Of a stretch of DNA of 64,000 bases, positions 10,977 through 55,335 are shown piece by piece (the first letter of the stretch is position 1; each line of letters opens with the position of its first letter). Source of the stretch: Pseudomonas paeninsulae (lineage in GTDB: Bacteria > Pseudomonadota > Gammaproteobacteria > Pseudomonadales > Pseudomonadaceae); NCBI RefSeq assembly GCF_035621475.1, contig NZ_CP141799.1, positions 3,956,501 through 4,020,500 on the forward strand, in the 5' to 3' direction. Both the position numbers and the translations under genes were made by a program. Under the pieces are notes generated by a model, which worked only from the letters and a program-made list of their open reading frames with translations, did no database searches and was not told the DNA's origin.

Positions 10977-11140
10977 CTAGTGGCCTGTATGGCTAGTTCA
11001 ATGAGTCTATGTCGGCGTTTGAGGCCCCAATACTACGTTGCCGCTCCTCGCCATAGCCCACTATGGCTCGTCGCAGCGCTGGGTCTCGGAACCTCAACCC
11101 TCCGAACTCGAGTTAACCCCCTAACCGTACAGGCCACTAG
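10977..11140 (-). repeat. CTAG-ended inverted-repeat element, copy 1 (MITE-like)
   Basis: The left end CTAGTGGCCTGTATGGCTAG (10977-10996) and the right end (11121-11140) are inverted repeats matching at 18 of 20 bases. An inner palindrome CCATAG-CCCA-CTATGG lies near 11051-11066. The reverse complement matches the elements at 49196 and 55180 along its length, including GGTTAACTCGAG, GGCGAGGAGCGGCA and a GGGGCCTCA block. It has no coding capacity and lies between the kinase and FHA genes. CTAG at both ends could be a four-base target duplication. Confidence 0.75.
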
Positions 11141-11172
11141 TCACTGTCAGCGGACTATGAGTCTCACCACAT

Positions 11173-12705
11173 TCACTTGTTGAAGATATTGTTCCACAGT
11201 CGCTTGATCGGGTTCTGCGTGGTTTGTTTTTGCGAACTCGTTGCTCGCGCTGCGGGCTTGCTGGCCGGCACCCGCGGCGCCTGGGCCAACTGTACGCGGC
11301 GCTCATGAGCATCATAGAGTTTTAGCAGGGCTTCATTGGCCGGCTCCACTTCCAGCCCTTGTTTGATGTATTCCAAGGCCATTCTGTATTCGCGTCGCCC
11401 ATAGGCCCGTTGGCTCTGCTCGATAAAGCGCTGCGCAATGCGATTAATACCCGCCAGAGCCAATAGGTTGTCCGGCTGCCAAGCCAACACTTGGCGAAAA
11501 TAGAACGTCGCACTGTCATCCTCTGGCAACCATAGCCGGTCTTCCACAAGGCGCTGCTCAGCGCGCTCCAGGTAACCGTCGATTCGCGCCTGTAACACCC
11601 GCTTCAAGCCCTCAAGGGCTTGAACGTTGCCGTGATCGAGCAACAACGCCTGGCGGTAGTAGTAATCGGCGTTATTCTGCGGCGGCTCGAGCAGCTTGCC
11701 TTCGCCCAAGCGCTGTTCGGCTTGAGCGATAAAGTCGGCGATTTGCATGTGTTGGTAACCGTAGTAACCGGCCCACCCAGCCCCACTCAACAATAGGACG
11801 CCAAGCAGCGCCCAGGGCAGAACGTTGCGTCGTACACTCGTACCCTTGCGGGCATGGGCCTGATCCAACTTGAGCCCAGGGCCAATGCGGGTGCTATCCG
11901 GGTCATACTCCTGCAACTCGTCCAAACTGGCGAGCAATACCCGGCAGTCCATAAAGCGTTCGTCCGGGTTCTTGGCCAGCATGCGTTCGAGCAACCATTG
12001 ATAACTCTGCAGATGCACCGGTAGATTGGGTAGTTCCATCTGCACGTGATTCATCACGGTCTGGGTGTAGCTAGCGCCGCGATAAAGGTTAGTACCAGTG
12101 AGCATCTCCAGCAGGATTACGCCAAGACTGTAAATGTCACTACGGGCATCCAGTGCCAAGCACTGGGCCTGTTCCGGGCTGCTGTACGCTGGGCTACCGA
12201 CCGCGATACCGAACTGAGTGAGGTCGTGATCCAGCGTCACTTCCTTGGCCACGCCAAAGTCGCTGATCACCGCGGTGCCGTCATCACGAAAGAGGATGTT
12301 GGCCGGTTTGATGTCGCGGTGCACCAAGCCATGGTCATGCACCACGGCCAGACCGCTGGCGATCTGGCGGACTATCTGCAACGCACGGTACGGCGCGAAT
12401 ACTTCACCCTTGTGCTGCGCCAGGTCGCCGCCGGAGACGAACTCCATCGCCAGGTAGTAACGGCCATCGGCGAGCATGTCGATGTCATGGATGGTGATGA
12501 TTGAGGGGTGATGCAGGCCGGCCACTATGTGGCCTTCCTTGATGAAGCGCTGACTGAACGCCTCGTCGTGGGCGCTGAGCAACACTTTCACCGCGACCTT
12601 GCGGTGCAACGAGAGCTGGGTGGCCAGGTAAACCTCGGCCATTCCGCCCTTTCCCAGGCGGCCATGCATGCTATAGCCAGGAATCTCAATCAAGTTTTCA
12701 TTCAT
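11173..12705 (-). CDS. Membrane serine/threonine protein kinase (Stk1/PpkA-like)
   Basis: From the ATG at 12705 the protein is 510 residues; a TTG at 12714 would add three. Counting from that TTG, the Hanks-type kinase domain spans about 14-270, with glycine loop GKGGMAEVY, lysine K43 in VAVKVLL, HRDIKPAN (D134), DFG (D152) and GSPAYSSPEQ. A membrane helix at about 299-320 (VLPWALLGVLLLSGAGWAGYY) separates it from a C-terminal part with repeated TPR-like units (NADYYYRQALLLDHGNVQAL, SATFYFRQVLAWQPDNLLAL). It is 23 bases downstream of the PP2C phosphatase gene on the same strand, so the two are probably cotranscribed. In P. aeruginosa similar kinase, phosphatase and FHA sets control type VI secretion, but no such genes are visible here. 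Confidence 0.93.
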   Translation of the reverse strand: MNENLIEIPGYSMHGRLGKGGMAEVYLATQLSLHRKVAVKVLLSAHDEAFSQRFIKEGHIVAGLHHPSIITIHDIDMLADGRYYLAMEFVSGGDLAQHKGEVFAPYRALQIVRQIASGLAVVHDHGLVHRDIKPANILFRDDGTAVISDFGVAKEVTLDHDLTQFGIAVGSPAYSSPEQAQCLALDARSDIYSLGVILLEMLTGTNLYRGASYTQTVMNHVQMELPNLPVHLQSYQWLLERMLAKNPDERFMDCRVLLASLDELQEYDPDSTRIGPGLKLDQAHARKGTSVRRNVLPWALLGVLLLSGAGWAGYYGYQHMQIADFIAQAEQRLGEGKLLEPPQNNADYYYRQALLLDHGNVQALEGLKRVLQARIDGYLERAEQRLVEDRLWLPEDDSATFYFRQVLAWQPDNLLALAGINRIAQRFIEQSQRAYGRREYRMALEYIKQGLEVEPANEALLKLYDAHERRVQLAQAPRVPASKPAARATSSQKQTTQNPIKRLWNNIFNK

Positions 12706-12728
12706 CTGGGTCAACGCACACCGAGTGA

Positions 12729-13514
12729 TTACTTCGTTAGGGGTTTGAATAATTTACTGAGAAACCCGCGCGGCTGTGCCGCAGCCACCGGTTCGACCGA
12801 GGCGCGCCCGAGTACGATGCAAGAGATATTGTCACGCCCACCCATTTGGTTGGCCTGGGCAATCAGCTGCTCCACCAGTTCGTCGAGACTGTTGGCGCTA
12901 GCACACACTTGCTGGATTTGCGGGTCGGTCAACTCCCCGGTCAGCCCATCGCTGCACAGCAACAACAGCTCATGCGGCCCTAGACTGCCCCGCGCCTGTC
13001 CGATTTCGATGACCTGATGGTCGCGCCCCAGGCACTGGAAAATGACATTACGCTGAGGATGGCTGCGTGCCTCTTCGACGCTCATTTCGCCGGCATCGAT
13101 CATCGACTGCACCCAGCTGTGATCACGGCTCAAGTAGCGAATGCAGTCGGCATCGACGCGATAGGCGCGACTGTCGCCAACCCAAACAATCTCGAAATCG
13201 GCCCCCGAAAAGCGCACGGCGACCAGGGTAGTGCCCATTCCGCGGCAATCGGCATCGCCCTCGGCAGCGGCGAGGATGGCGCAATTCGCCGCATGTACGG
13301 CGGTCACCAAATCCTGCCCTTCGGCACAGGCGGTACGTAGCGTTTGCAGCGCCAAAGCACTGGCCACTTCACCGCGTAGATGGCCACCCATGCCATCGGC
13401 GACCGCCCATAGAGCCAACTCGGGACAGCACAACAGCGCATCTTCATTGTGCCCTCGTACCTGGCCAACGACAGTCTGCGCCGCGTACACCAGAGGTTCT
13501 CCAATTTGCGTCAT
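12729..13514 (-). CDS. PP2C-family protein serine/threonine phosphatase (Stp1/PppA-like)
   Basis: This 261-residue cytoplasmic phosphatase carries the PP2C motifs in order: RGHNEDA (about 19-25), VADGMGGH (37-44), GMGTTLVAV (about 91), VWVGDSRAYR (about 109), LCSDGLTGEL (about 186) and GRDNISCIVL (about 230). These supply the aspartates that bind the two metals. The length matches PppA/Stp1. It is the first gene of the phosphatase, kinase, FHA unit on the minus strand and should reverse the kinase's phosphorylation. Upstream (13515-13787) I see an AT-richer stretch with no gene, then IS debris. Confidence 0.93.
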   Translation of the reverse strand: MTQIGEPLVYAAQTVVGQVRGHNEDALLCCPELALWAVADGMGGHLRGEVASALALQTLRTACAEGQDLVTAVHAANCAILAAAEGDADCRGMGTTLVAVRFSGADFEIVWVGDSRAYRVDADCIRYLSRDHSWVQSMIDAGEMSVEEARSHPQRNVIFQCLGRDHQVIEIGQARGSLGPHELLLLCSDGLTGELTDPQIQQVCASANSLDELVEQLIAQANQMGGRDNISCIVLGRASVEPVAAAQPRGFLSKLFKPLTK

Positions 13515-13787
13515 CGACCTGCCTACTTCTTAAGAATCTGGAGGGCTGCGTGACATACAGCGTAGAGGTGCTTGCGACAGTGCGCACAATACCCTCAGGG
13601 TTCGCTGCAGTCATCGACCGCCCCACTCCCCCATGAACAGATATTCACCCAGATTAAGCATAAGCCTAGCAGCCTGGCGGGCTTGAATTCATGGGCAGGG
13701 CATCAATAGCGAAGACGAAATAATTCGTCTAACCACTTGGATAGTTACAGGTATTTATTGCCAGTGAACTCATTAAAACAAGTTAAT

Positions 13788-14190
13788 TTAGCTAGTTTTT
13801 GCCAACAAGTGACGTGTTTTTTTGCGCCAAACAGCCATGCGCTTCAGGTTCCAGGCCAGGCAAACCAGGCGCCATTCGCCGCTCACCTTGCCCTTGCCCC
13901 GCAGCAGAAACTGACGAAAGCCCATGACCAACTTGATGATGCCAAACACCGGCTCAACCGTCTGTTTGCGCAGGGCATAGTGGCGGCTTGCCGCCAGGTT
14001 TCTTGCCGAAGCGTGCCGTACGCGCCGCACGCTTAGCCAGTTTCTCCCGGTAGGCGGCATGCTCCTGTTCCAAGCGCACGCGGGCAGGGCCTCGATCTTG
14101 GCCTTCGCTGCGTCCATGGCGAGCAATCGTTCTTGCCGACGCTTAATCTCGTCCGGCAAGTCGATGCTGTCAGGCTGTGCGTAGCGCCTT
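13788..14190 (-). pseudogene. IS1182-family transposase remnant with internal deletion
   Basis: Reading the minus strand, RYAQPDSIDLPDEIKRRQERL and the following KAKIEA resemble the middle of IS1182-type transposases. After a one-base shift the text continues as RLEQEHAAYREKLAKRAAR and KKPGGKPP. It then jumps straight to the C-terminal region YALRKQTVEPVFGIIKLVMG, FRQFLLRGKGKVSGEW and LVCLAWNLKRM. The catalytic segment between these blocks is missing and so is the N-terminus, so the element is dead. Its upstream edge lies about 15 bases from the stop of the next minus-strand gene. Confidence 0.8.
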
Positions 14191-14205
14191 CATACCGGCG
14201 CAGGC

Positions 14206-14526
14206 TCACTCCACAAGCGGAGCATCTTCGGCCACGCAGCGTACGGCCCGCTTGCGCTGATCGACCAGCACGCCACTGAGGCCTTTCTGTTCCAGGTCGA
14301 ACAGCACCACGACGCCATCTACGCACTGCGCCACCTGGTTGGCCGGTTTGAGCGAGACCTTGTAGTCCTCGCCGGGAACGGTCTTGAGCATGGTGTAGTC
14401 GGAGAGCAGCAATGCATCCTCCGGCTGGGCGAAGTGCAGGTAGCCGTAGTAGCCGAGGACCGCCACCGTGGCGCAGATGCTGCCGATACCGGTGAGGATC
14501 AGGGGGATGGGGTTCAGTTCACTCAT
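14206..14526 (-). CDS. Small conserved-type membrane protein of unknown function
   Basis: This 106-residue protein has one N-terminal membrane helix (IPLILTGIGSICATVAVLGYYGYL, about 7-30) and a C-terminal domain of about 70 residues (PANQVAQCVDGVVVLFDLEQKGLSGVLVDQRKRAVRC) with two cysteines that could pair. The N-in orientation would place the domain in the periplasm. I do not recognise a named family. It ends next to the IS1182 remnant, but the reading frame itself looks intact. Confidence 0.7.
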   Translation of the reverse strand: MSELNPIPLILTGIGSICATVAVLGYYGYLHFAQPEDALLLSDYTMLKTVPGEDYKVSLKPANQVAQCVDGVVVLFDLEQKGLSGVLVDQRKRAVRCVAEDAPLVE

Positions 14527-14671
14527 TACAGACTCTCGAGGTTGGACGTTTCAGCAAAAATAATCGCCTAGCCAACCAGATGGCTGGCTGACAGGCGAGC
14601 TACGAAGTGACACTGACAGTAGCGACAGGCGGCGCAGCTTGATACAAACCCAAGCCGTTGCAAAGTGGCGA

Positions 14672-15418
14672 TCATTTACCGTCGGCGCGCACTTGCTCAC
14701 GGGCTTTGAAGGTCGCCTCGTAGATGCGCTCGGCCAGGCGCGAGAATGGCAGGCTCTGTACCCAGACCGTGCCAGTGCCTTTCAGAGTCGCCAGGACGAT
14801 GCCCTCGCCGCCGAACAACATGCTTTTCAGCCCGCCGGCCAGGGCGATGTCGTAATCGATACCACTGGTAAAGGCCACCAGACAACCGGTGTCGAGGCGC
14901 AGGGTCTGGTTGTTCAGCTCCTTACGGATCACCGTGCCGCCGGCATGCACGAAGGCCAGACCGTCGCCCTCGAGCTTTTGCAGGATGAAGCCCTCGCCGC
15001 CGAAGAAGCCGGCGCCCAGGCGCTTGTTGAAACTGATACCGACAGCGGTGCCGTAAGCGGCGCAGAGAAAGGCGTCTTTCTGGCAGATCAGGCTGCCGCC
15101 GTGCTCGGCCAACTTGATCGGCACCACGGTGCCCGGATATGGCGCAGCAAAGGCGACCCGCGCCTGGGTTTTGCCGGCATTGGAGAAATGCGTCATGAAC
15201 AGCGATTCGCCGGTGAGCATGCGCTTGCCGGCGCTCCACAACTTGCCCAGCACCCCGCTCGCCGCGCCATCGCCCATGCGCGTCTCGAAGCGCACGCCGT
15301 CAGTCATGTAGTTCATCACCCCGGCTTCGGCGATCACTGTCTCACCGGGGTCGAGGATGATTTCCACACTCTGCGCCGAGGCGCCGAGAATTTCGTAGTC
15401 GAGTTGATGGCTGGGCAT
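14672..15418 (-). CDS. AIM24 family protein (TIGR00266-type)
   Basis: From the ATG at 15418, which follows CCAGGAGCC, the protein has 248 residues. It is a beta-rich single-domain protein with family hallmarks: [18 protein letters not shown] near the start, [13 protein letters not shown] in the middle and [27 protein letters not shown] near the end. Related proteins occur in bacteria and as mitochondrial AIM24; their biochemical role is unknown. No signal peptide or membrane segment is seen. It lies downstream of the DUF1704 gene with the 131-base palindromic element between them. An upstream extension of the frame to 15580 overlaps that element and has no ribosome site, so I rejected it. Confidence 0.88.
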
Positions 15419-15485
15419 GCAAAGGCTCCTGGCAGTTCGCTTAGGCGCTGTCCTGGGTGTTAATCGGGCTACCCTATCGCATGAC

Positions 15486-15616
15486 CTGAAAGCGTCGCGA
15501 GCGAAGAGCAGGCAAGGCGAAGATGAGGCCGGAAAGCGGAGTTTACTGCTGTAAATGAGCATTTCCGGCCGCATCTTCAACGCAGCATGATGCGCGAAGC
15601 CCGCAGCAGCTTTCAG
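15486..15616. repeat. 131-base palindromic intergenic element
   Basis: CTGAAAGC at 15486-15493 and GCTTTCAG at 15609-15616 form the outer inverted repeat. A large inner stem pairs GAAGATGAGGCCGGAAA (from 15520) and GTTTAC with the complementary TTTCCGGCCGCATCTTC (to 15578), 21 of 28 positions matching around TGCT. The right end contains the stop codon of the DUF1704 gene. Similar palindromes occur between genes in other Pseudomonas as far as I recall. It is a different sequence from the CTAG-ended repeat. Confidence 0.65.
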
Positions 15617-16908
15617 AGGATGTTGGCGTAGTCGGCTTCAATCCGGTCGAGACTCAGGTGATTGAGGAAGTTGGAGAAGCACATCCAGGCCGACAGCGAG
15701 TTGAGGTCGCGGAACTGTTCGGGCAGGTATTTCGGTGCTACCACCAGGCCCTCGTCGACCAACTTACGCAGGGTGCGCATGTCTTCCAGGGTGGTCTTGC
15801 CGCAAAACAACAGCGGTATCTGCTCCAGCTTGCCCTTGCGCACGGCCAACTGGATGTAGTTGTAGACCATGATGAAGCCCTTCAGATAGGACAGATCCTT
15901 GGTGAACGGCAGCCCGGTCGGGGTCGAGCCACGGAACACCCGACTGGCATTGCTGTAGCCCTCCTCCAGACTGAAGCCCTGTTCGCGGTAGAACTCGAAC
16001 ACCTGGAGAAAGTCCGCACCCTCCTCGGCCATGTGGATGCCGCGCGTGCGGTTGGTCAGCTTGCGCAGACGGGTCGGGTAGGAGGCGAAGGTAATCACCT
16101 CCATCAGAATCGCCAGGCCTTCCTGGGTCACAGTAGAGGATGGCGGGCCCTTGGCCAGGAAGGTGCACACCGGCTGATTCAGGCCATTCAGGGTGGTCGC
16201 CACATGCACCAGTCCTTCATGCACCTCCAAGGCCTTGACGTCACGCTGGTTGAACATCGCATCGGCGCGAATCTTGATGTAATCGGCACCGGCAGCGGCG
16301 TCGGCGAGGATGCCATCGGACTCGAACACCCGAATGGTGTCTTCTGCCTCGCCAAACACCTTGTTCAGACGATGTTGCAGCAGGTCGACGGCCTGCTTGG
16401 CGGTGAGGTCTTTCGGCTCGTCCTCGAGGTCGCCACGCTTGTCGATGTTATTCAGGTAGCCGGAAAACATCAGGCCCAGGTCGGACAGGGTCGGGTCACC
16501 GGCATGGAAGGCATCCGACGCCGCGCCGTAGAGTTCCTGCGAGATCAGGCCGAAGTCCTCGGTGCCGCGCGCCTCAAGCATGCGAATGACCATGCGGTAC
16601 TCGCGGCACATGCGCCGCATGATCTGCCCGACCGGGTTGAATTGGCCCAACTGGCGGGTGACGTCGCGCTCGATATTCTGGAACTCCAGCTTCTTCGCCG
16701 CTGCATCGAAGGCCAACGGCCGGCTGTCGTAATAGGCACGATCTACCGCAGGCAGTTTCTTGCCTTTGTGCTTGAGAAAACCCTCGCGAATGCTGTCGTC
16801 CCACTTCACCGCATCCAGCACACGAATCGGCGTCTGCGCCTCGACAATCCGGTCGGACAACGCCCGCACGGTAAGCTGATAGTCGTCCAACCCAGTGAGA
16901 CTGTTCAT
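15613..16908 (-). CDS. DUF1704 / QEGLA-motif protein, putative metalloprotease
   Basis: This 431-residue protein is of the family annotated as flavohemoglobin expression-modulating QEGLA motif protein (DUF1704). The naming motif appears as [10 protein letters not shown] at about 264. About 35 residues before it is [15 protein letters not shown], an HExxxH arrangement. Eukaryotic members of the same domain family (MATCAP/KIAA0895) are zinc carboxypeptidases using HExxxH plus a glutamate, so a zinc peptidase activity is plausible but untested here. There is no signal peptide. The TGA stop lies in the terminal repeat of the 131-base element. The lipoprotein gene is 29 bases upstream on the same strand, suggesting cotranscription. 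Confidence 0.85.
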
Positions 16909-16937
16909 CGCTCCCTCATTATTTGCTCATTAACTAA

Positions 16938-17489
16938 CTATGGACCGACGCGCTGAAAGCGCGCGACCTCGATAAATACATCCGAATTGGCCTGGTCGTC
17001 GAGATAGGCGAATACGGCATCCAGTGGGCTGGTAATCAATACCCCCTCACCCTGCTGCGTATCGACTGACTTGCCTTGCAACGTGCCTGCCTCAAGCTCC
17101 TGCACAATGCGCTCGACATCCAGGGTGTGGATCACCAACTCATTGTCGACGGTCAGTTCGAAACCGGCGATGGCGAAGTTGCCACCCAAGTTTTGCGGCA
17201 GACCGGCCGACAGATACCAGCGCCGGCCATGATGGGCCACGGTGAAACCGTATTTTTCCAGGCTATCGAGGTTGTCCGGGCTGCCCTTGTAGGTTCTGGC
17301 CTCGTAGAGGCTGGAGCCGGCACGGGTAATGTCCAGATAGTAGCGCTCACCCCATTCGTCCTTGCGCGACCATTCGCCGAGCAGAGGGATGGGCGCCGCT
17401 TCGTTGGCTGGAATCGGGTCGTTGAAGGTCACCAGACAGCCGCTCAACAGCAGCAAGGACAAGGCAATCGCTACGCGCCAGGCATTCAT
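16938..17489 (-). CDS. Putative lipoprotein of unknown function
   Basis: This 183-residue protein starts with a type II signal peptide, lipobox LLSGC with Cys at about 18 (MNAWRVAIALSLLLLSGC). The mature part is beta-rich (LLGEWSRKDEWGERYYLDITRAG, HGRRWYLSAGLPQNLGGNFAIAGFEL) and ends with a segment around VLITSPLDAVFAYLDD. It resembles uncharacterised Pseudomonas lipoproteins; no function is assigned. It probably forms an operon with the DUF1704 gene, 29 bases downstream. Confidence 0.8.
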   Translation of the reverse strand: MNAWRVAIALSLLLLSGCLVTFNDPIPANEAAPIPLLGEWSRKDEWGERYYLDITRAGSSLYEARTYKGSPDNLDSLEKYGFTVAHHGRRWYLSAGLPQNLGGNFAIAGFELTVDNELVIHTLDVERIVQELEAGTLQGKSVDTQQGEGVLITSPLDAVFAYLDDQANSDVFIEVARFQRVGP

Positions 17490-17562
17490 TTCGCTCTCCT
17501 TGTGAAAACAATTCGACCACGCCTGCAGATAATCCTTGAGAGCCCCGGCCGCAGGGCGCTAC

Positions 17563-18315
17563 TCAGAGTGCCAACACTACATGCATATACCGTTTAAGAA
17601 TGGCCAACATGTCCTCATTATCCAACTGCTCGAGCCCATCGAGCAGGCCCTGATACTCCATCCAGCCAATAATCGCCGTCAACAGCTTGGCATCCTGCTC
17701 GGGCTGCGCTGAACCCAACACCTGGCAAAATTGGCTGACGCCCTGCAAGAGAATCTGCCGATGGGCACGCACCAACTCGTGCAAGCGCGGATTGAGCAAG
17801 GCTTCCTGCTTGAAGGCCTGCTCGGCGAGCAAATGGTCGCGCCGGCTAAGCAGCTGATGGCGCACGTACTCCAGCGCCAAGCGGGCAATCTCGTCTGCCA
17901 GGTGCTGGCGTGCCTGCACGCTGCCATCGAGCGCGCCGAGCAACTCCTGCAACACACCCTCGGTGCTGCTCCAGAATTTGGCCATGTAGGCAGCGCTGCG
18001 CTCAACGAACTGGGCGAAGGTATCGGTGATCAGGTCATCGATATCCTTGAAGTAATAGGTGGTGGCCGACAGCGGCACCCCGGCTTCGGCGGCGACCGCG
18101 CGATGGCGTACGGCGCGCACGCCATCGCGCACGATGATGGCCATGGCGGCATCGAGAATCGCCTGACGACGCTGCTCGCTGCCCTGCCGGCTGGTTTTGC
18201 GGCCCTGGTACTGCACACTCTGGGCAACGGCATTGGCCACACGGGTGGCGCTATCTTGGGCAGGGGTGGAACTCACGGCTGGACAGTCCTCGCGCGCACT
18301 AAGAAACAGCGACAT
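17563..18315 (-). CDS. TetR-family transcriptional regulator
   Basis: This 250-residue protein has a long N-terminal extension of about 45 residues before the DNA-binding domain. The TetR helix-turn-helix runs RRQAILDAAMAIIVRDG, VRAVRHRAVAAEAGVPLSAT and TYYFKDIDDLI (about 49-97). The C-terminal ligand domain is helical and unrecognised. The start at 18315 is the most upstream; an internal start nearer the HTH cannot be excluded. It lies just downstream of the lysS terminator. The P. aeruginosa counterpart next to lysS (PA3699 from memory) is also TetR-type. Its targets are unknown. Confidence 0.85.
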   Translation of the reverse strand: MSLFLSAREDCPAVSSTPAQDSATRVANAVAQSVQYQGRKTSRQGSEQRRQAILDAAMAIIVRDGVRAVRHRAVAAEAGVPLSATTYYFKDIDDLITDTFAQFVERSAAYMAKFWSSTEGVLQELLGALDGSVQARQHLADEIARLALEYVRHQLLSRRDHLLAEQAFKQEALLNPRLHELVRAHRQILLQGVSQFCQVLGSAQPEQDAKLLTAIIGWMEYQGLLDGLEQLDNEDMLAILKRYMHVVLAL

Positions 18316-18360
18316 CTCGTGTTAGGCAGTATTGCGCAGAATAATTTCAGCGCCAGGCAA

Positions 18361-18384
18361 CAAAAAGCCGCCCGAGGGCGGCTT
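18361..18384 (-). terminator. Rho-independent terminator of lysS
   Basis: On the minus strand a 9-base stem AAGCCGCCC / GGGCGGCTT (18365-18384) is followed by TTTTTG. It lies 5 bases beyond the lysS stop. Confidence 0.85.
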
Positions 18385-18388
18385 GGCT

Positions 18389-45119: not shown

Positions 45120-45127
45120 AAGGTTGC

Positions 45128-46945: not shown

Positions 46946-47102
46946 GCACGTTCCTTTCAGGCCCTATCGAGCCGAGGGTGGGCTTGCAACAGACCAGCGA
47001 TTATATCGGAGACTCCCACCCACCGACACTGTCAGCGGTCTTTCGTGAAATGCTCGTTGTATGCCACACTCAGCGCCTTTCGGGCTTGCCTAACAAGGAT
47101 TT

Positions 47103-47903
47103 ATGCACCCTCTGCTTCCCAGCCTCGCTGCTGCCAGTCTCTATGCCGGCGCCACCTTCTACCAAGGTCTGCGCCTCAGCCAGCGCAGTACGCCCGACAA
47201 ACGCCTGCTGGTGCTACTCGGCGTGCTTGCCCTGCTCTTCCATGGTGCCAGCCTGTTTTTGCAGATGAGCCACGCGTCCGGCCTGTCGCTCGACTTCTTC
47301 AATGCCGCCAGCCTGATCGCCTATGCCGTGATCGCACTGACCCTGCTCGCCTGCGCCCGCATCCCGGTAGAAAATCTGCTGCTGCTGCTATTCCCGCTGG
47401 GTGGCCTGACCGTATTACTGGCGCAGCTCATGCCGTCCGGCACCCTCAAGTCGATCAATGAAGCGCCAGGTATTCTCGCCCACATCCTGCTGTCGATCAT
47501 GGCCTACGGCATGCTGACCATTGCCGTGTTCCAGGCACTGCTGCTATTGCTGCAGGATCATCAGCTCAAGCACAAGCACCCGTCTGGACTGATCAGGAAC
47601 TTCCCCCCGCTGCAAACCATGGAAAGCCTGTTGTTCGGCTTTCTCTGGGCCGGCTGGATCCTGCTGTCGCTGTCATTGCTGTCCGGCGCGATCTTCATCG
47701 ATGACCTGCTTGCCCAGCACCTTGTGCATAAAACCATCCTTTCCTGCTTCGCCTGGATCGTCTTCGCCGTCCTGCTCTGGGGCCGCCACCAGCTCGGCTG
47801 GCGCGGGCACAAGGCAATCCGCTGGACCCTGGCCGGCTTCTGCCTACTGATGCTGGCCTACTTCGGCAGCAAGCTGGTTCGCGAATTCATTCTGCATATC
47901 TAG
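47103..47903 (+). CDS. CcsA/YpjD-like inner-membrane protein
   Basis: This 266-residue protein has about eight membrane segments (for example LLLLLFPLGGLTVLLAQLMP, GILAHILLSIMAYGMLTIAV). The pattern belongs to the cytochrome c assembly (CcsA/CcmF-like) family as the short YpjD type encoded next to ffh. The lost tryptophan-rich WWD motif of true haem-handling proteins is not seen, so a haem role is uncertain. It is followed after nine bases by the CorC-like gene. Confidence 0.88.
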   Translation: MHPLLPSLAAASLYAGATFYQGLRLSQRSTPDKRLLVLLGVLALLFHGASLFLQMSHASGLSLDFFNAASLIAYAVIALTLLACARIPVENLLLLLFPLGGLTVLLAQLMPSGTLKSINEAPGILAHILLSIMAYGMLTIAVFQALLLLLQDHQLKHKHPSGLIRNFPPLQTMESLLFGFLWAGWILLSLSLLSGAIFIDDLLAQHLVHKTILSCFAWIVFAVLLWGRHQLGWRGHKAIRWTLAGFCLLMLAYFGSKLVREFILHI

Positions 47904-47912
47904 GCCATTTCC

Positions 47913-49199
47913 GTGGACAACGCTCACCCTGGCTTTCTGCTCGGCCTGCTGATTTTCCTGCTCGCCTGCTCGGCGTTCTTCTCCAGCTCGGAAACCGGCA
48001 TCCTCAGCCTCAATCGTTATCGCCTGCGCCATCTGGCCAAAGAAGGGCACCGTGGCGCCAAGCGGGTCAGCGACCTGCTCAGCCGCCCGGATCGCCTGCT
48101 CGGCACCATTCTGATCGGCAACAACTTCGTCAATATTCTCGCCTCGGCCATCGCCACCGTGCTGGCCATTCAGCTCTGGGGCGAAGCAGGGATCGCGATC
48201 GCCACCATAGGCCTGACCCTGGCGCTGCTGATTTTCGGTGAAATCACCCCGAAAACCCTGGCCGCCCTGCACCCGGAAAAAGTTGCCTACCCGTTCAGCC
48301 TGCCGCTGCTGATACTGCTCAAACTGTTCTACCCGCTGGTCATCCTGCTCGGCTGGATCAGCAACGGCCTGCTCAGGCTACTGGGTGTCGACCCGGCCAG
48401 TAAAAACAACGACAGCTTGACCACCGAGGAACTGCGCAGCGTGGTGCGCGAGTCCGGCCATGAACTGCCGAAAAACCGCCAGAACATGCTGCTCGGCATC
48501 CTCGACCTGGAGAAGGTCACGGTCGACGACATCATGATCCCGCGCAACGAAGTCACCGGCATCGACCTGGAAAACGATATCGAGACCATCATCAACCTGC
48601 TCACCACCACGACTCACACGCGCCTGCCTGTGTTTCGCCACGACATCAACCAGGTCGAAGGCATCGTGCACATGCGCCAGATCGCACGCCTGATGGGGCA
48701 CAACCAGCTGACCAAGGAAGACTTGCTCGCCGCCTGCAACGAACCCTACTTCGTGCCGGAGAACACACCGCTATCGACTCAGCTGATTAACTTCCAGAAA
48801 CAGAAACGCCGGATCGGCATCGTCGTCGACGAGTACGGCGATGTGATTGGCATCGTGACTCTGGAAGACATCCTCGAAGAAATTGTCGGTGACTTCAGCA
48901 ATCAGGACACCCTGCGCAGCCCGGACATTCATCCGCAAGAAGATGGCACCCAGGTCATCGATGGCGCCGCGTACATTCGCGAGGTCAACAAGACGCTCGG
49001 CTGGCACCTGCCCTGCGACGGCCCCAAGACCCTTAACGGCCTGATCACCGAAGCGCTGGAAAGCATCCCTGACAGTGCTGTGTGCCTGAAGATCGGCCCT
49101 TACCGCCTGGAAATCCTGCAGTCGTCGGAGAATCGGGTGAAAAGCGTACGAGCCTGGAAGACCAGCGCTACGGCACCGAGCGAAACACCGGCAGACTAG
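47913..49199 (+). CDS. CNNM/CorC-family transporter-associated protein (DUF21-CBS-CorC)
   Basis: This 428-residue membrane protein starts at the GTG at 47913, nine bases after the previous stop. The N-terminal DUF21 region contains four hydrophobic segments (GFLLGLLIFLLACSAFFSSS, ETGILSLNRYRLRHLAKEG, ILASAIATVLAIQLWGEAG). A pair of CBS domains follows (about 205-325: DIMIPRNEVTGIDLENDIET, GIVVDEYGDVIGIVTLEDIL), then a C-terminal CorC_HlyC domain (DGAAYIREVNKTLGWHLP). Homologues export or regulate magnesium or cobalt; the ion here is unknown. The stop codon TAG is part of the CTAG end of the repeat at 49196. Confidence 0.92.
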   Translation: MDNAHPGFLLGLLIFLLACSAFFSSSETGILSLNRYRLRHLAKEGHRGAKRVSDLLSRPDRLLGTILIGNNFVNILASAIATVLAIQLWGEAGIAIATIGLTLALLIFGEITPKTLAALHPEKVAYPFSLPLLILLKLFYPLVILLGWISNGLLRLLGVDPASKNNDSLTTEELRSVVRESGHELPKNRQNMLLGILDLEKVTVDDIMIPRNEVTGIDLENDIETIINLLTTTTHTRLPVFRHDINQVEGIVHMRQIARLMGHNQLTKEDLLAACNEPYFVPENTPLSTQLINFQKQKRRIGIVVDEYGDVIGIVTLEDILEEIVGDFSNQDTLRSPDIHPQEDGTQVIDGAAYIREVNKTLGWHLPCDGPKTLNGLITEALESIPDSAVCLKIGPYRLEILQSSENRVKSVRAWKTSATAPSETPAD

Positions 49200-49351
49200 T
49201 GGCTGGTGCGGTGAGTTGGTTAACTCAAGGCGGATACCTGAGGCTCTGAGACACGTCGCCTGCGACGAGTCATGGTCCGCCCTGGCGAGGAACAACATCA
49301 GGGCCTCAGGCGCCGAAATTGACTACTCGAGCCGACCAAACAGTCCACTAG
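49196..49351 (+). repeat. CTAG-ended inverted-repeat element, copy 2 (MITE-like)
   Basis: This 156-base element is flanked by CTAG at 49196-49199 and 49348-49351. The ends (CTAGTGGCTGGTGCGG and, inverted, CTAGTGGACTGTTTGG) are related but less perfect than in copy 1. It shares GGTTAACTCAAG, ACCTGAGGCTCTGAGA and CAGGGCCTCAGGCGCCGA with copy 3. It lies between two convergent genes and contributes the stop codons of both. Confidence 0.75.
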
Positions 49352-50057
49352 CCGCCAGGCCCTCGGCCCAGGCCCGATAACCGAGACTCGATGGGTGGTA
49401 GCCGTCGACCGCCAGGTAATCCGCGGAAAACTCCAGACTCAGCGGATGATGCTCCACCCCGAGGCGAGCGGCGAGCTGGAGCAAGCAGGTATCGAGCAAG
49501 GCTGCACGCACGCCGAACACCTGCCGTAGCAGCCAGGGCAAGGCACTGAAATGCTGCAGCGGTGGCACACCGCTGAACGCCACCTGCGCACCACGCTGAG
49601 CCAGCGCCTCGGCCATGTTGCCGAGCGCAACGCGCCAGCACTGCAGCGACGTGAGATGGCTGGCGTCGTTGACACCGAAGACCAACAGCGCCAGATCGAA
49701 CGGCTCGTCCAGCACCTGCGGCAACAACCGCTCACACGCCTGCGCGGCGGTGATGCCATTTTCACCACAGGCACGCCAGGCCACCGGCCTGCCTTGCCGA
49801 ACCGCCAGCGCCTCGGCCAACTGCCCCACCAGCGCCGCCCGCAAGCAGCTCACGCCAACACCCACCACCGTGGATTCACCCAACACCAGCAAGCGCAATG
49901 GCTCGCCCGCCAGGTCAGCCCCAGCCAACCCGCGCTGCGGACCTTCGGCTGGCGGCAGCCTAAGTGCCTGCCTGCGCGTGCGTATGGCTAGCGGCACCAG
50001 CACAGGCGACAAAGCCAGCACCGTCAGCCACCAGGCATATGCGCGCAGCGGGCTCAC
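49323..50057 (-). CDS. SGNH/GDSL-family hydrolase
   Basis: This 244-residue protein begins with an N-terminal hydrophobic segment ([19 protein letters not shown]). The SGNH blocks are [12 protein letters not shown] (serine, GES in place of GDS, about 57), the glycine of [21 protein letters not shown] (Asn, about 126) and the Asp-His pair [10 protein letters not shown] near 218-222. The start is a GTG overlapping the purT stop (GTGA). The last residues SGLFGRLE and the stop are encoded inside the terminal repeat of the element at 49196, so its C-terminus may differ from relatives. Substrate unknown; it may be an esterase or acyl hydrolase. Confidence 0.85.
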
Positions 50058-51235
50058 AGCTCGACGCAGACCGCCTGCGCCGCACGAGTGGCCTTGTCAC
50101 GCGCCGCCTGCAGCGACTCATCGCGCGCCAAGGCCACCCCCATGCGCCGCTGACCACTGACTTCGGGCTTGCCGAACAAACGCAGCGCCGTGTCCGGTTC
50201 GGCCAACGCCGCAGCGAGATTGGCAAAACTGACCTGCCGCGATTCACCCTGCACCAGCAGCACCGCCGACGCGGAGGGGCCGAGCTGACGAATAAGCGGA
50301 ATCGGCAGGCCGAGAATGGCCCGCGCATGCAGGGCGAACTCGGACAGATCTTGGGAAATCAGCGTGACCAGACCGGTATCGTGGGGACGCGGCGAGACTT
50401 CGCAGAACCAGACCTGATCGCCCTTGACGAACAACTCGACGCCAAACAGACCGCGACCGCCCAGCGCGTCCGTGACGGCCAGGGCAATGCGCTCGGCCTC
50501 GGCCTGGGCCTTCGCACTCATCGGCTGCGGCTGCCAGGATTCCTGATAGTCGCCCTTGACCTGACGGTGGCCGACCGGCGCACAGAAGCTGGTGCCGCCG
50601 GCATGCCGCACCGTCAGCAGGGCAATCTCATAGTCGAAATCGATAAAGCCCTCGACGATCACTCGCCCCTGACCGGCGCGACCACCCGCCTGGGCGTACT
50701 CCCAGGCCGCCTGCAGGTCATCGATAGTTTTCAGCAGCGACTGGCCTTTACCCGACGAGCTCATGATCGGCTTGATCAGACAGGGAAAGCCGATCTGCTG
50801 CACCGCCGCCCGGCACGCCTCGAGCGAGTCGGCAAACTGGTATGGCGAAGTCGGCAAGCCCAACTCTTCGGCCGCGAGACGGCGGATACCCTCGCGGTTC
50901 ATGGTCAACTGCGCGGCACGGGCGCTGGGAATCACGGTAAAACCTTCGCTCTCCAGCTCGACCAGCGTCGCCGTGGCAATCGCCTCGATCTCGGGCACGA
51001 TGTAATGCGGCTGTTCCAACTCGATCACCGCACGCAACGCCGCGCCATCGAGCATATCGATCACATGGCTGCGATGTGCCACCTGCATCGCCGGGGCATT
51101 GACATAGCGATCCACGGCGATCACCTCGACGCCGAGGCGCTGCAGTTCGATCACCACTTCCTTGCCCAGCTCACCAGAGCCACAGAGCAAGACGCGAGTC
51201 GCACTCGGCGACAATGGGGTTCCGATACGGGGCAT
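50054..51235 (-). CDS. purT: Formate-dependent phosphoribosylglycinamide formyltransferase
   Basis: This ATP-grasp enzyme makes FGAR from GAR, ATP and formate. From the ATG at 51235 after GAGGAG it has 393 residues; the frame continues upstream to 51322 without similarity. Blocks: [75 protein letters not shown] and [16 protein letters not shown]. It overlaps the following SGNH gene by four bases. PurL, the next enzyme of the pathway, is encoded 5 kb away in the window. Confidence 0.97.
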
Positions 51236-51282
51236 GAAGGCTCCTCGAACTAACAGGGATACAAGGCCACCAGGCAGTGGAG

Positions 51283-51471
51283 TTAGAGCAGTACACCCTG
51301 GGCTTGCGCCCGCGCATGACAAAGCAGCAACACCTGACGACGCTCGGCATTGCCCATGCGGCCCCAGCGGGTGATTTCGGCAACATTACGCTGGCAACCG
51401 ATACAGATGTCGTCATCGTCCAGCGCACATATCTGCACGCAGGGCGAGACAACGGGGCGTTCGTGCCCCAT
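51283..51471 (-). CDS. DUF1289 family small cysteine-rich protein
   Basis: This 62-residue protein carries the DUF1289 pattern: [20 protein letters not shown] with four cysteines in CxxxC-x(7)-CxGC form, followed by [17 protein letters not shown]. The cysteines suggest a metal or iron-sulfur site, but function is unknown. Its ATG overlaps the stop of the carbonic anhydrase-like gene by one base (TGATG arrangement), so it is translationally coupled to it. Confidence 0.88.
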
Positions 51472-51995
51472 CAGTCTTCCTGCTCGACCAGGTCGCGCGC
51501 GTAACGCTGAGCGTTATGCGCATAGTGCGCGGCGCTGGCCTCGAGCATGGTCTTTTGCGCCTCGCTCAGCTCGCGCACCACCTTGCCTGGCGAACCGATT
51601 ACCAGGGAGCCGTCGGGAATTTCCTTGCCTTCGCCGATCAGGGTGTTGGCGCCGATGATGCAGTACTTGCCGATTTTCGCGCCGTTGAGCACCACCGCAT
51701 TGATGCCAATCAGGCTGTAATCGCCGACCGTGCAGCCATGCAGCATGGCGTTATGGCCGATGGTCACGCCCTTGCCGAGCGTCAGCGGAAAGCCCATGTC
51801 GGTATGCATCACGGTGCCGTCCTGCACGTTGCTCTGCTCGCCGATGTGGATCAGCTCGTTGTCGCCGCGCAACACCGCGCCGAACCAGACGCTGGCACCC
51901 TGCTCCAGCTTGACCTTGCCGACCAGCGTGGCGTTCGGTGCCACCCAGCTCTCGGGGTGGACGTCGACGCTGGATTGCCCCAGGCGATATTTCAT
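51471..51995 (-). CDS. Gamma-carbonic anhydrase-like hexapeptide-repeat protein
   Basis: From the ATG at 51995 the protein has 174 residues of left-handed beta-helix hexapeptide repeats. The metal-binding histidines of gamma-class enzymes are visible in [22 protein letters not shown] ([12 protein letters not shown] spacing). [20 protein letters not shown] precedes them. Homologues include YrdA/CaiE-type proteins that bind zinc; activity as carbonic anhydrase is not certain. It is coupled to the DUF1289 gene downstream. Confidence 0.92.
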
Positions 51996-52037
51996 TGATT
52001 GACCCTCGTTTCGCGATTGATCTGCGCTTTCGCGCAA

Positions 52038-52640
52038 TTAGCGGAGCGTGATGAAGTGCTCAGATGGTTGATGCAGATTGATGTCGGCGTCATAGACCAG
52101 ATTGACCAGTTCCACCAGCATGATCGCAGTAAGCCCCCAGATCTTGTATTCGCCATAACGGTAACTCGGCACGTACCAGCTCTGCCCGAGGTAGTCGATG
52201 CGATGGGTCATCTCGCGCGGATCGCCGCGAAAGAACTCCAGGGGCACCGAGAACACCGAGGCGATTTCATCATCGTTGGCCAGGTATTCGACGTAATCCG
52301 GCACCAGCCCGACGTAGGGCGTGACCTGAATGCCGTGACGCGAAATCAGGGTGCTGAGCGGCCCGATCACCTCGACCAGCCCCGGCGCCAGACCGATTTC
52401 CTCTTCGGCCTCACGCAGTGCGGTACGAATCAGATCGGCATCTTCCGGATCCCGTCGACCGCCGGGAAAAGCCACCTCGCCGCCGTGAGTGGACAGGCCA
52501 CTGGCGCGCAAGGTCAACACCACTTCCGGTTGGTCGTTGCGGGTGAGAGGAACCAACACCGCCGCCTCGGGGAAGTTGCGGTCAGTCTCCAGAAGACGCG
52601 GGTTGTAGCCGCGCACGCGGTGGAGCAGATCGTCCAGCAT
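52038..52640 (-). CDS. NUDIX hydrolase, coenzyme A pyrophosphatase type (NudL/YeaB-like)
   Basis: This 200-residue protein has the NUDIX box GGEVAFPGGRRDPEDADLIR followed by TALREAEEEIGL (about 53-85). The preceding LTRNDQPEVVLTLRASGLSTH resembles the CoA pyrophosphatase signature family. Such enzymes cleave CoA or acyl-CoA to 4'-phosphopantetheine and 3',5'-ADP. It lies 42 bases upstream of the carbonic anhydrase-like gene, in the same direction. Confidence 0.9.
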   Translation of the reverse strand: MLDDLLHRVRGYNPRLLETDRNFPEAAVLVPLTRNDQPEVVLTLRASGLSTHGGEVAFPGGRRDPEDADLIRTALREAEEEIGLAPGLVEVIGPLSTLISRHGIQVTPYVGLVPDYVEYLANDDEIASVFSVPLEFFRGDPREMTHRIDYLGQSWYVPSYRYGEYKIWGLTAIMLVELVNLVYDADINLHQPSEHFITLR

Positions 52641-52807
52641 GGAGATTCTCAGTCTTTATTCTTGTTTCGATGATTGCACGAAAGTCACCCTCGCCCCAAG
52701 CTCGGCAACGCTCGCGACGATCATTCAGGGAGTCGCTGCAGCGCCTGATCGCGCTTGCCGCCCGGCCCCATCACGCGCCAAAATGTGGGTGACAAAGAGG
52801 ATTCCCC

Positions 52808-53365
52808 ATGAAGTTCTGCAGCCAGTGCGGCAGCCCTGTGACCCTGAAAATCCCCGAGGGCGACAACCGCTTGCGCCATGTGTGCGAGCACTGCCACACC
52901 ATTCATTACCAGAACCCGCGAATAGTCGCCGGCTGCTTGCCGGTGTGGGGCCAGCGCGTACTGTTGTGCCGCCGCGCCATAGAACCGCGTCGTGGTTTCT
53001 GGACCCTGCCGGCCGGCTTCATGGAGAACGGTGAAACCCTGGAGCAGGCTGCTGCGCGCGAAACCCACGAGGAAGCCTGCGCCCGGGTACACGACCTGAA
53101 CCTCTACACCCTGTTCGACCTGCCGCATATCAATCAGGTGTACCTGTTCTTCCGTGCCGAACTGGCTGACCTGGATTTCGCTGTTGGCGAAGAGAGCCTC
53201 GAAGTGCAGCTATTCGAGGAATCCGAGATCCCCTGGTCTGAGCTGGCTTTCCCGACTATCGGGCGTACCTTAGAATGCTACTTTGCTGACCGCCGGCAGC
53301 ACGTTTACCCGGTACGCAACGAACCGCTGGAAGCCTTGCGCGCACACTACAAGAAAGTTCATTGA
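52808..53365 (+). CDS. NUDIX hydrolase with N-terminal zinc ribbon
   Basis: This 185-residue protein begins with a zinc ribbon (MKFCSQCGSPVTLKI, CEHCHTIHYQNPRIV: four cysteines). The NUDIX box is GFMENGETLEQAAARETHEE followed by A (about 75-95), preceded by WTLPAG. This layout occurs in a group of NUDIX enzymes related to NudC-like and ADP-ribose pyrophosphatases; the substrate is unknown. It is the first of two plus-strand genes, 19 bases before the L,D-transpeptidase. Confidence 0.9.
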   Translation: MKFCSQCGSPVTLKIPEGDNRLRHVCEHCHTIHYQNPRIVAGCLPVWGQRVLLCRRAIEPRRGFWTLPAGFMENGETLEQAAARETHEEACARVHDLNLYTLFDLPHINQVYLFFRAELADLDFAVGEESLEVQLFEESEIPWSELAFPTIGRTLECYFADRRQHVYPVRNEPLEALRAHYKKVH

Positions 53366-53384
53366 TCCCCGGGATACCGCTCCG

Positions 53385-53888
53385 ATGCGCTGGTTACTCA
53401 TTCTGCTCTGTTTGTCCCTTACCGCTAATGTTCACGCCACTGCCACGCCCATGCAGGAGGCCCCGCTGATCGACAAGGTACTGGTGGTCAAGTCGGAACG
53501 CCGACTGCACCTGATCAGCCGCGGCGAAACACTCAAATCCTACCGGGTGTCCCTCGGCAAGCAGGCCAATGGCGCCAAACAACGCGAGGGCGATCGGCGC
53601 ACGCCGGAAGGCTTCTATTGGATCGATTGGCGTAAAACCAGCGAGAAATACCAACTGTCCTTGCACATCTCCTACCCCAATGCCCGCGATCAGGCCCACG
53701 CCCGCGCGCAAGGCGTGCCACCCGGCGGCATGATCATGATTCACGGCACGCCGCTGGACGAGGAGTACCCGGAGTGGTTCTTCCACACACTGGACTGGAC
53801 CGAAGGCTGTATCGCCATGAAAAACGATGACATCCGTGAAATCTGGAGCCTGGTCAAGGACGGCACCCTGATCGAGATCAGGCCCTGA
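53385..53888 (+). CDS. L,D-transpeptidase family protein (YkuD domain)
   Basis: From the ATG at 53385 the protein has 167 residues with a signal peptide (MRWLLILLCLSLTANVHATA). The YkuD catalytic motif appears as MIMIHGTP (His about 119) and WTEGCIAMKNDDI (Cys about 144), the usual HxX14-17-S/TxGCxA/R order, with TEG replacing SHG. Such enzymes crosslink peptidoglycan or attach lipoproteins to it in the periplasm. The gene follows the NUDIX gene closely. Confidence 0.9.
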   Translation: MRWLLILLCLSLTANVHATATPMQEAPLIDKVLVVKSERRLHLISRGETLKSYRVSLGKQANGAKQREGDRRTPEGFYWIDWRKTSEKYQLSLHISYPNARDQAHARAQGVPPGGMIMIHGTPLDEEYPEWFFHTLDWTEGCIAMKNDDIREIWSLVKDGTLIEIRP

Positions 53889-54062
53889 TGGCCGCAAGGC
53901 CTTCTCTTGCGGCCCATGGCTTGGCGCTTGCGCCATTCGCTCATTGCTGGGTTGCGGACAAATCCGCCCGTCAGCCTGCACGCGTCGCGAAAGCAAAGAT
54001 TTGCACACGTTAATCTTGCGCGATAACTTATTGTGCTAATCACCTGATCGCGGGATCGCCCC

Positions 54063-54512
54063 ATGACCCAGCCCCACACCTGCGCCGCGCTATTGCTGGA
54101 CAACCAGCTGTGCTTCGCCCTGTATTCGACCTCCCTGCTGATGACTAAGGCCTACAAGCCGCTGCTGCAGAGCATCGGCCTGACCTACCCGCAGTACCTG
54201 GCCATGCTGGTGCTGTGGGAACGCGACGGCATCACCGTCGGCGAGATCAGCGCCCGCCTGTTGACCGACCCCGGTTCGCTGACGCCACTGCTCAAGCGCC
54301 TGGAAGCCGAAGGCCTGCTCAAGCGCACCCGTAGCAGCGTTGACGAGCGCGTGGTCGAGCTGTACCTGACCGAACAGGGCTGTGCCCTGCAACAGCAGGC
54401 CGAGCGCTTCCCCGCTTGCATAGTCGAGGCCAGCGGGCACAGCACGGCCGAGCTAATGGCGCTCAAGGAGGAAGTGCTAGCCCTGCGCAACAAGCTACAA
54501 CAGTCGCTCTAA
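54063..54512 (+). CDS. ohrR: MarR-family organic-hydroperoxide-sensing repressor OhrR
   Basis: This 149-residue regulator has a MarR winged helix (VGEISARLLTDPGSLTPLLK, RLEAEGLLKRTRSSVDERVV). The peroxide-sensing cysteine is C17 in LLDNQLCFALYSTS, and a second cysteine lies in LTEQGCALQQQ, fitting the two-cysteine OhrR class. Oxidation of C17 releases the repressor from DNA. It lies upstream of ohr in the same direction, and the AT-rich gap between them would contain its operator. Confidence 0.94.
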   Translation: MTQPHTCAALLLDNQLCFALYSTSLLMTKAYKPLLQSIGLTYPQYLAMLVLWERDGITVGEISARLLTDPGSLTPLLKRLEAEGLLKRTRSSVDERVVELYLTEQGCALQQQAERFPACIVEASGHSTAELMALKEEVLALRNKLQQSL

Positions 54513-54741
54513 CCCAGGTACCGGCGCACCCTGCCGATCGCTAGTCTTTGTCCCCGCCCCGCCCCGCCAACGCCCCGCCTGAAATTCGCAGCCAGCCCCA
54601 CTTATTCCATAAAATACAAATGCGTATAACTATTTAATCTTATAAATATATTGCGCACTAAATTAAATCGAACTAAATTTCAGCCACGCACTTACTTTGC
54701 GCGCAATACTTTAGGCAACAAACTAACCGGGAGACATCGCC
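54513..54741. promoter_or_regulatory. AT-rich ohrR-ohr intergenic region with candidate operators
   Basis: This stretch is strikingly AT-rich against its neighbours. TTGCGCGCAA (54697-54706) is a perfect palindrome 36 bases before the ohr start, and TATTGCGCACTA (54649-54660) is a near match. TTGCGCGATAA (54016-54026) lies upstream of ohrR. These are plausible OhrR binding sites, but this is inferred from position and repetition only. Confidence 0.45.
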
Positions 54742-55170
54742 ATGCAAACCATCCAAGCCCTTTACACCGCTAGCGCCACCGCCACTGGTGGGCGTGACGG
54801 CCGCGCCGTTTCCTCCGACGGTTTCCTCGACGTGAAACTGACCACCCCGCGCGAACTGGGCGGCCAGGGCGGCGAAGCGAGCAACCCGGAACAGCTGTTC
54901 GCTGCCGGCTACTCGGCCTGCTTCATCGGTGCGCTGAAGTTCGTCGCCAGCCAGAAGAAACTGGCCCTGCCGGCAGACACCTCGATCACTGGCAAGGTCG
55001 GCATCGGCCAGATTCCCGGTGGCTTCGGCCTGGAAGTGCAACTCAACATCAGCCTGCCGGGCCTTGCACAGGCCGCCGCCGAGGAACTGGTCGACGCAGC
55101 TCACCAGGTCTGCCCGTACTCCAACGCCACCCGCGGCAACATTGACGTACGCCTGAACGTCGCCGTCTGA
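54742..55170 (+). CDS. ohr: Organic hydroperoxide resistance protein Ohr
   Basis: This 142-residue OsmC-family thiol peroxidase detoxifies organic hydroperoxides. The two redox cysteines are in [14 protein letters not shown] (about 60) and [14 protein letters not shown] (about 124), with the family arginine in [11 protein letters not shown]. It is known to use lipoyl or dihydrolipoamide reductants. GGGAG lies ten bases before the ATG. It is followed, ten bases after the stop, by the third copy of the CTAG-type repeat. Confidence 0.97.
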
Positions 55171-55179
55171 AACGCGCAC

Positions 55180-55335
55180 CCAGTGGTCGGGCCGGTTAGC
55201 GGGTTAACTCAAGTCGGATACCCGAGGTTCTGAGCTAAGGCGCGGCGACCAGTCATAGCCCGCGATGGTGAGGAGCGGCAAAGCAGTATCAGGGCCTCGG
55301 ACGCCGAAATTGACTAATCGAACGGATCAGGCTGG
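55180..55335 (+). repeat. CTAG-type inverted-repeat element, copy 3 (MITE-like)
   Basis: This element is 156 bases, the same length as copy 2 and in the same orientation. Here the ends are CCAGTGGTCGGGCCGGTTAG and, inverted, CCAGCCTGATCCG, so the terminal CTAG has become CCAG. It shares GGTTAACTCAAG, TATCAGGGCCTCGGACGCCG and AAATTGACTA with copy 2. Between Ohr and the convergent NIF3-like gene it has no coding capacity. Confidence 0.75.

Follow-up and report, generated by a model that had tools for sequence, protein, structure and literature searches.

A 64,000-nucleotide stretch of the Pseudomonas paeninsulae genome (assembly GCF_035621475.1, contig NZ_CP141799.1, positions 3,956,501 to 4,020,500; hereafter the window) carries three copies of a short element with inverted-repeat ends and no gene. 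The explanation that we consider probable is that these copies belong to a family of miniature inverted-repeat transposable elements (MITEs) moved into CTAG sites by IS630-type transposases, the hairpin of which is under selection at the level of RNA. Transposases of the IS630 family (Tc1/mariner-like DDE enzymes) would cut and paste the elements in trans into CTAG, with the central TA duplicated on insertion. The strand that reads the conserved core would then give rise, at least occasionally, to a transcript whose hairpin would be selected, in the simplest case as a structured segment of untranslated RNA that serves, or does not disturb, stability or processing. An earlier note on the window had described an old, once mobile, gene-less inverted-repeat family at CTAG, and this description is borne out here; the whole-element hairpin, the conserved core and the covarying arms go beyond its remarks.

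Copy 1 (158 bp, 10980..11137) has its core on the minus strand, while copy 2 (150 bp, 49199..49348) and copy 3 (157 bp, 55183..55339) have theirs on the plus strand. The proposed homology of all three was confirmed: a repeat finder matched copies 2 and 3 at 77% across 62 and 57 nt and copies 1 and 3, as an inverted repeat, at 76% across 100 nt, and BLASTN with copy 3 against its own genome recovered copies 2 and 1 at E 6.8e-20 each. The earlier note had located the copies correctly, but its right end of copy 3 lay 4 bp short, and the true element ends, GTG...CAC with TA outside and mostly within CTAG, redefine the limits. The flanking TA dinucleotides lie at 10978-10979 and 11138-11139 for copy 1 and at 49197-49198 and 49349-49350 for copy 2; direct reading agrees with the note that each of the two copies has CTAG at both ends and that the ends of copy 1 match at 18/20 positions, CTAG included. 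Both TA flanks of copy 3 have decayed, to CA on the left and GA on the right. Each window copy is predicted to fold as a single end-to-end hairpin, with z-scores against dinucleotide shuffles (computed on the limits given in the earlier note) of -8.5, -5.6 and -2.0 for copies 1, 2 and 3, respectively; the fold of copy 3 is the weakest of the three, 5 of 200 shuffles being as stable. The conserved core occupies 11035..11079 in copy 1 (minus strand, on which it reads GCGCTGCGACGAGCCATAGTGGGCTATGGCGAGGAGCGGCAACGT), 49257..49296 in copy 2 (plus strand, part deleted) and 55240..55284 in copy 3 (plus strand). Copy 2 also shows an internal 8-bp gap relative to its counterpart in genome G394.

Running the BLASTN check that had been proposed revealed further copies in the same genome. 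With E up to 1, 20 places in the 5.35-Mb genome were matched by copy 3 and 22 by copy 1, the weak matches among them being fragments, and a covariance model gave 14 matches at E <= 1e-4 (at most 15 candidates were scored per genome), which places the copy number far beyond chance. Under filters stricter than those of the core search, the model identified family members in 84 of 199 genomes of the genus, while the central stretch alone (74 nt from a relative) matched 143 of 398 with E up to 1e-6; the own genome is included in both counts. As a query, copy 3 matched 9 of 38 genomes, namely its own and 8 of 37 others. All eight belong to the genus, several being matched through the central stretch only, and none of the 13 genomes of other genera was matched. 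The exact core pattern was found in 104 stretches among 84,980 species genomes; each of the 80 listed carries a Pseudomonas title, with P. fluorescens, P. mandelii, P. frederiksbergensis, P. brassicacearum, P. taeanensis, P. benzenivorans and P. viridiflava among them. Searched with copy 3 at E 1e-5, a plasmid collection gave no hit.

The element is built as a hairpin of about 158 nt that comprises outer arms, inner stems and an apical core of about 45 nt (GGCGCYGYGACGAGTCATAGCNNGCTATGGCGAGGAGCGGCAACGCAG). The core is near invariant and the outer arms vary between copies. Most elements were located via the core, so that its conservation stems partly from selection by the search, the arms having been selected by a minimum end match only; in the 80 named elements the core was fixed by the search pattern and the arms were free. 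Four arm types can be told apart by their ends, GTGGCCTGTACGGTTAGTTG (the window type), GTGTCCTGTCTCACAAATACG, GTGTCCTGTCTCGGAAATACG and GTGTGGTGTTTTGCAAATACG (G117), and for each type the left and right arms complement each other in the examples inspected. The alignment used comprises 44 dissimilar rows (a set of 45 from which L031 and L045 were removed, L001 and L010 being swapped for window coordinates and window copy 2 added). It contains 47 consensus pairs, at which 95.5% of cells are paired and 34 of which show double changes. Double-change cells numbered 299 compared with 75.8 in shuffles, and the covariation score was 0.474 compared with 0.175, a signal that was lost when columns were slid by 1-3. 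None of 500 shuffles matched the alignment values for pairing, and the slid versions fell far lower.

In paired RNA a G-U pair nearly equals a Watson-Crick pair and an A-C combination does not, whereas in double-stranded DNA they are one mismatch read from opposite strands. Pairs were therefore defined from both strands jointly, and G-U and A-C were read on the strand carrying GCGACGAGTCATAGC. From 232 distinct elements, 14 were left out for an end match below 11/16 or a length not within 150-166, giving 218 that were used and 78 after removal of those at least 90% alike. At pairs that are at least 80% Watson-Crick, these 78 elements contain 106 G-U and 29 A-C combinations, compared with 87:76 in the unpaired control (Fisher p 6e-6); the counts were 157:73 at a threshold of 70% (p 0.003) and 60:26 at 90% (p 0.015). 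G-U exceeds A-C in 52 of the sequences, falls below it in 15 and equals it in 11, and in 76 of 78 the predicted fold is more stable for the core strand than for the complementary one. One pair within the core is U-G in 41 of the 44 alignment rows and C-G in the remaining 3.

The asymmetry also appears among copies at the same site, whose inheritance was judged from their flanks and in which transposition should then play no part. Across 18 of 127 sites, each with at least three distinct sequences, derived states comprised 50 G-U, 18 A-C, 59 double Watson-Crick and 32 other; these were called from majorities rather than trees, and relatives are non-independent. The ratio of 50:18 departs both from an even split (p 1.3e-4) and from the 37:29 counted at unpaired control positions (p 0.046). 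Taken together, these patterns point to selection on a strand-specific RNA hairpin and make an RNA-level layer of the family likely as far as sequence can tell. They also hint that the fold may be preserved as RNA long after insertion and may have a function beyond selfish copying.

The ends connect the family to IS630 elements, which prefer CTAG and duplicate TA. Of 136 elements, 31 retain both flanking TA dinucleotides, or 28 when four copies that occupy a single site are counted as one: of the 31, 26 lie in CTAG and 5 in CTAT, TTAT, CTAC, TTAG or CTAA, with the inner G and C constant. A TA (2-bp) duplication is favoured because of these five copies; within CTAG targets, 2-bp and 4-bp duplications are indistinguishable. 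End placement gave a bonus to TA and to GT...AC, so that the constancy of the ends is partly by choice. At least one end was at least 15/20 identical to an IS630 end in 141 of 198 elements (the 232 distinct ones less 34 with an end match under 12/16 or not starting GT), compared with 14 of 526 single flanks from 263 CTAG sites away from elements, some of which possibly belong to other MITEs. Window copies 1 and 2 agree with the L266 insertion sequence (IS) end at 17/20 for their 3′ ends and 14/20 for their 5′ ends, while the decayed ends of copy 3 reach 12/20 at best. A G117 element matches the L278 IS end at 18/20, the commonest arm type matches an end in L284 at 18/20, and the G187 arm type matches the L272 end at 15/20 only. 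That different arm types match different IS630 lineages suggests that one core may have been moved by several transposases.

The full-length transposase element with like ends that the earlier note had anticipated does exist, as IS630 elements of about 1.18 kb and not as the IS5-like family it had named. IS ends were plausibly TA-flanked at 5 of 17 loci and were found at 18 of 29 loci when TA was required, the two sets overlapping partly. Sixteen distinct IS630 elements have recognisable inverted ends (18 rows, L247/L278 and L248/L280 each being one element listed twice); 15 of them measure 1.17-1.19 kb, none contains the core, and 14 read CTA...TAG outside, TA but not C or G having been required in the search. 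In one element per lineage the DDE_3 transposase domain was detected, at E 2.7e-23 and 7.7e-16. Two transposase pieces, taken from IS630 elements beside mini-elements, match 10 of 119 and 33 of 298 genus genomes. Genomes G203, G183 and G272 carry both an L272-type IS630 element and G187-type MITEs, the ends of which agree with the G203 IS at 15/20. In G050, which has near-identical MITEs, the IS630 match is interrupted by a stop and its ends are unrecognisable. On the evidence of ends and targets, the family is most likely of IS630 type and not IS5 type, and its movement would be due to IS630-type transposases.

Comparison of filled and empty sites supports past mobility. In G187 the filled site reads GATGCTA-element-TAGCGATGG, and the corresponding empty site in G115, the flanks of which are 95% identical, reads GATGCTGGCGATGG; G183, G123, G359 and G117 also lack the element there and read CTGGCGA. 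The target in G187 thus differs by a single substitution from the empty genomes (CTAG in place of CTGG), and the empty-site check suggested by the earlier note gave a clean result at this site. This comparison covers five genomes with both flanks, leaving out G140, G203, G342, G384 and G289 among others, and the clean empty site came from hand-chosen flank handles, an earlier attempt having given none. The earlier note had also proposed that its account would fall if relatives carried the sequence at all the window sites; at the copy 2 site, the one compared, G394, a genome of the same species that matches at 96% over 1.15 kb, has the element, and G012, G013 and G014, whose flanks are too diverged for a base-level junction, lack it.

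Insertion at CTAG has a consequence for neighbouring genes. CTAG is rare (284 occurrences in the named loci, 818 kb less 400 bases per locus end), and 79 of the 238 CTAGs away from elements terminate an open frame that is 100 or more codons long. As the element starts with G and ends with C, CTAG, and hence TAG, is re-formed at both junctions. Given that CTAG is rare and that about a third of its occurrences end an open frame, a stop codon is therefore a frequent landing place and is restored by the insertion. Copy 2 is such a case: it re-forms the TAG stop (49197..49199, plus strand) of the CNNM/CorC_HlyC gene at 47913-49199, which consists of the flanking TA and the first G of the element.

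The same data can be read in other ways. The element could be a purely selfish MITE, the palindrome being a long terminal inverted repeat only and the covariation arising from repeated transposition, ancestry or template-switch correction of the palindrome at the DNA level. Its ends and target match those of IS630 elements, its orientation to genes is unbiased, and palindrome correction can produce double changes in one step, all of which suit this account. Copies at the same site nonetheless show 59 double changes and an excess of G-U over A-C (50 versus 18), and both palindrome correction and transposase binding should be indifferent to whether G-U or A-C stands on a given strand of the element. 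Conservation is also highest in the apical core, away from the ends, though partly because the search used the core. We regard a purely selfish element as possible but doubtful. Improbable, in our judgement, is a function of the core selected at the DNA level, for instance as a dyad recognised by a protein (GCCATAGC..GCTATGGC) or as a cruciform: the core does hold a perfect or near-perfect dyad that is near invariant, yet a dyad in double-stranded DNA gives no strand preference, and neither the core pair that is U-G in 41/44 rows nor the excess of G-U over A-C by strand would be expected of it. An IS5-type MITE with a 4-bp CTAG duplication, as the earlier note had supposed, is very improbable. 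CTAG does stand at both sides of copies 1 and 2, and MITEPsy1 of P. syringae (IS5/ISPsy2), likewise a Pseudomonas MITE at CTAG and reported to be 100 bp long with a 4-nt CTAG duplication and ends GGAAGGTCTGAAAAAGCC, shows that CTAG-duplicating MITEs occur in Pseudomonas (PMC3189936). The ends here, GTGGCC/GTGTCC, differ by eye from those reported for MITEPsy1 and resemble IS630 ends (no directed search was made for IS5 elements with GTGGCC or GTGTCC ends), and 5/31 TA-flanked copies lie in non-CTAG targets with the inner G and C constant, which speaks for duplication of TA.

Several observations count against an IS630-moved family under RNA-level selection, the reading that we prefer. Relatedness is not accounted for in the shuffle controls, and the alignment on which the structure is tested is also its source. 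A smaller earlier same-site set gave 39:12, not distinct from its unpaired control of 17:10 (p 0.29). The coincidence of elements with stop codons (18/37) is not significantly above the CTAG background (79/238, p 0.095), both figures counting open stretches of at least 100 codons and possibly inflated by shadow frames. No orientation to crudely called neighbour frames is preferred over 79 sites (20 ++, 23 --, 16 -+, 13 +- and 7 inside), and G-U exceeds A-C in all four gene orientations (26:16, 24:8, 43:21 and 28:8). These two findings are not what a purely read-through role in 3′ untranslated regions would lead one to expect; together they would mean either that neighbours transcribe both strands or that the element has its own promoter. 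That the core strand is transcribed at all is something we infer. No Rfam covariance model matched at its gathering score in the window and nine loci. The own genome gave no match to transposases of either lineage at the cut-offs used, so that no helper seems to be resident alongside the window copies, and among the genomes examined none was shown to hold both an IS630 helper and a MITE having identical ends. Beyond the preferred reading, we advance tentatively, as a proposal that could well fail, that the family is a mobile structured RNA. A conserved module would be carried as an IS630-type MITE with ends from several transposase lineages, would land on stop codons at no cost to the genes and, whichever way round it had inserted, would act as RNA at its new sites, perhaps as a hairpin for processing, stability or protein binding, or from its own promoter.

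In kind, the family is a known one, an IS630-type MITE forming a hairpin, and Correia/NEMIS, RUP and ERIC are its kin in kind. Correia/NEMIS of Neisseria and RUP of Streptococcus pneumoniae, which are linked to IS630 and duplicate TA, are likewise short, gene-less and intergenic with IS630-like ends. ERIC of the enterobacteria, at 127 bp, is similar in size and is also an intergenic, imperfect full-length palindrome. Its sequence presumably differs from that of the Pseudomonas element, and its hosts are others. Compared by description only, the present family is set apart from Correia/NEMIS and RUP by end-to-end pairing around a fixed core and by ends of several IS630 lineages. Correia-containing transcripts are reported to be cleaved by RNase III, and ERIC copies at the 3′ ends of Yersinia genes can change transcript levels (PMC10969869). 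The R178 repeat of P. fluorescens is described as 101 bp with an internal 11-bp inverted repeat and as present in 18 copies in SBW25, 28 in Pf0-1 and 9 in Pf-5 (Silby et al. 2009, PMC2718517). It resembles the present family in low copy number and host, the core occurring here in genomes named P. fluorescens, and it differs in its reported length of 101 bp; likened by description only, R178 might be the core of the Pseudomonas MITE family. In the parts of the literature available to the search, no Pseudomonas MITE with this core is described, R178 being a possible exception.

To our knowledge, neither the combination of one fixed core with arms from more than one IS630 lineage nor strand-specific upkeep of pairing after insertion has been described. 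Bacterial MITEs are usually regarded as debris. A fixed centre, helper-dependent ends and apparent RNA-like evolution after insertion amount to a natural experiment, with many independent insertions of one module, many common sites and a clear strand prediction. This would make the domestication of MITE hairpins as RNA elements a directly testable question.

Within the window, a Ser/Thr kinase gene ends 35 bp before copy 1, and an FHA gene of the same direction lies downstream of the copy. Copy 2 sits on the stop of the CNNM/CorC-type gene, and a convergent GDSL-like gene terminates inside it: the final 26 bases of the frame at 49323-50057 (C-terminal codons and stop, minus strand, 49323..49348) belong to the element, which thus encodes its last residues. 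Copy 3 begins 12 bp past an OsmC-like gene (54742-55170) that is convergent with a CutA1-like gene (55517-55909), the latter label resting on a match below the Pfam cut-off. An intrinsic terminator is unlikely, since the examined copies end in CAC without a T run (by eye; no terminator scan was made). At L112, L113, L114, L130 and L132, in several species, an element occupies a common position just a few bases before the start codon of a gene beginning ATGGGCGAGTTTGAGCTGATCCGC, which we take to be thiL. There the 3′ end of the element, CAGGACAC or a variant, supplies a Shine-Dalgarno-like AGGA/GGGA at the usual spacing.

Candidate counts are high in G050 and G410, with 75 and 62 core candidates (two scored in each) compared with at most 27 in other matching genomes, and may reflect recent expansion. 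Seven of the G050 copies look alike, and at L337 and L339 of G050 elements adjoin other element ends with CTAG in common, as if new copies land on the CTAG created by earlier ones.

Shortened derivatives without the core are also present. Minimal forms of about 35-80 bp consist of little more than a pair of complementary ends, and some of them remain in CTAG (L060 from 1499; L169 near 358, minus strand; L086 near 336). At L216, L227 and L232 (from about 1500) a core-less mini-element is followed directly at its right end, at TA, by an IS630 element; the junction is the same in the three genomes, and the IS630 transposase gene at L216 is split over two frames. Beyond the window, the own genome contains further elements with the same outer ends and no core. 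It also holds a second class of MITE (for example at L067, L074, L077, L078 and L062) that has one end in common, GTGGCCTGTACGGTTAG..., and another, GTGGCCTGATCGGTTAATCC, that agrees with the L255 IS630 end at 19/20; several copies of this class contain internal palindromes of REP-like appearance.

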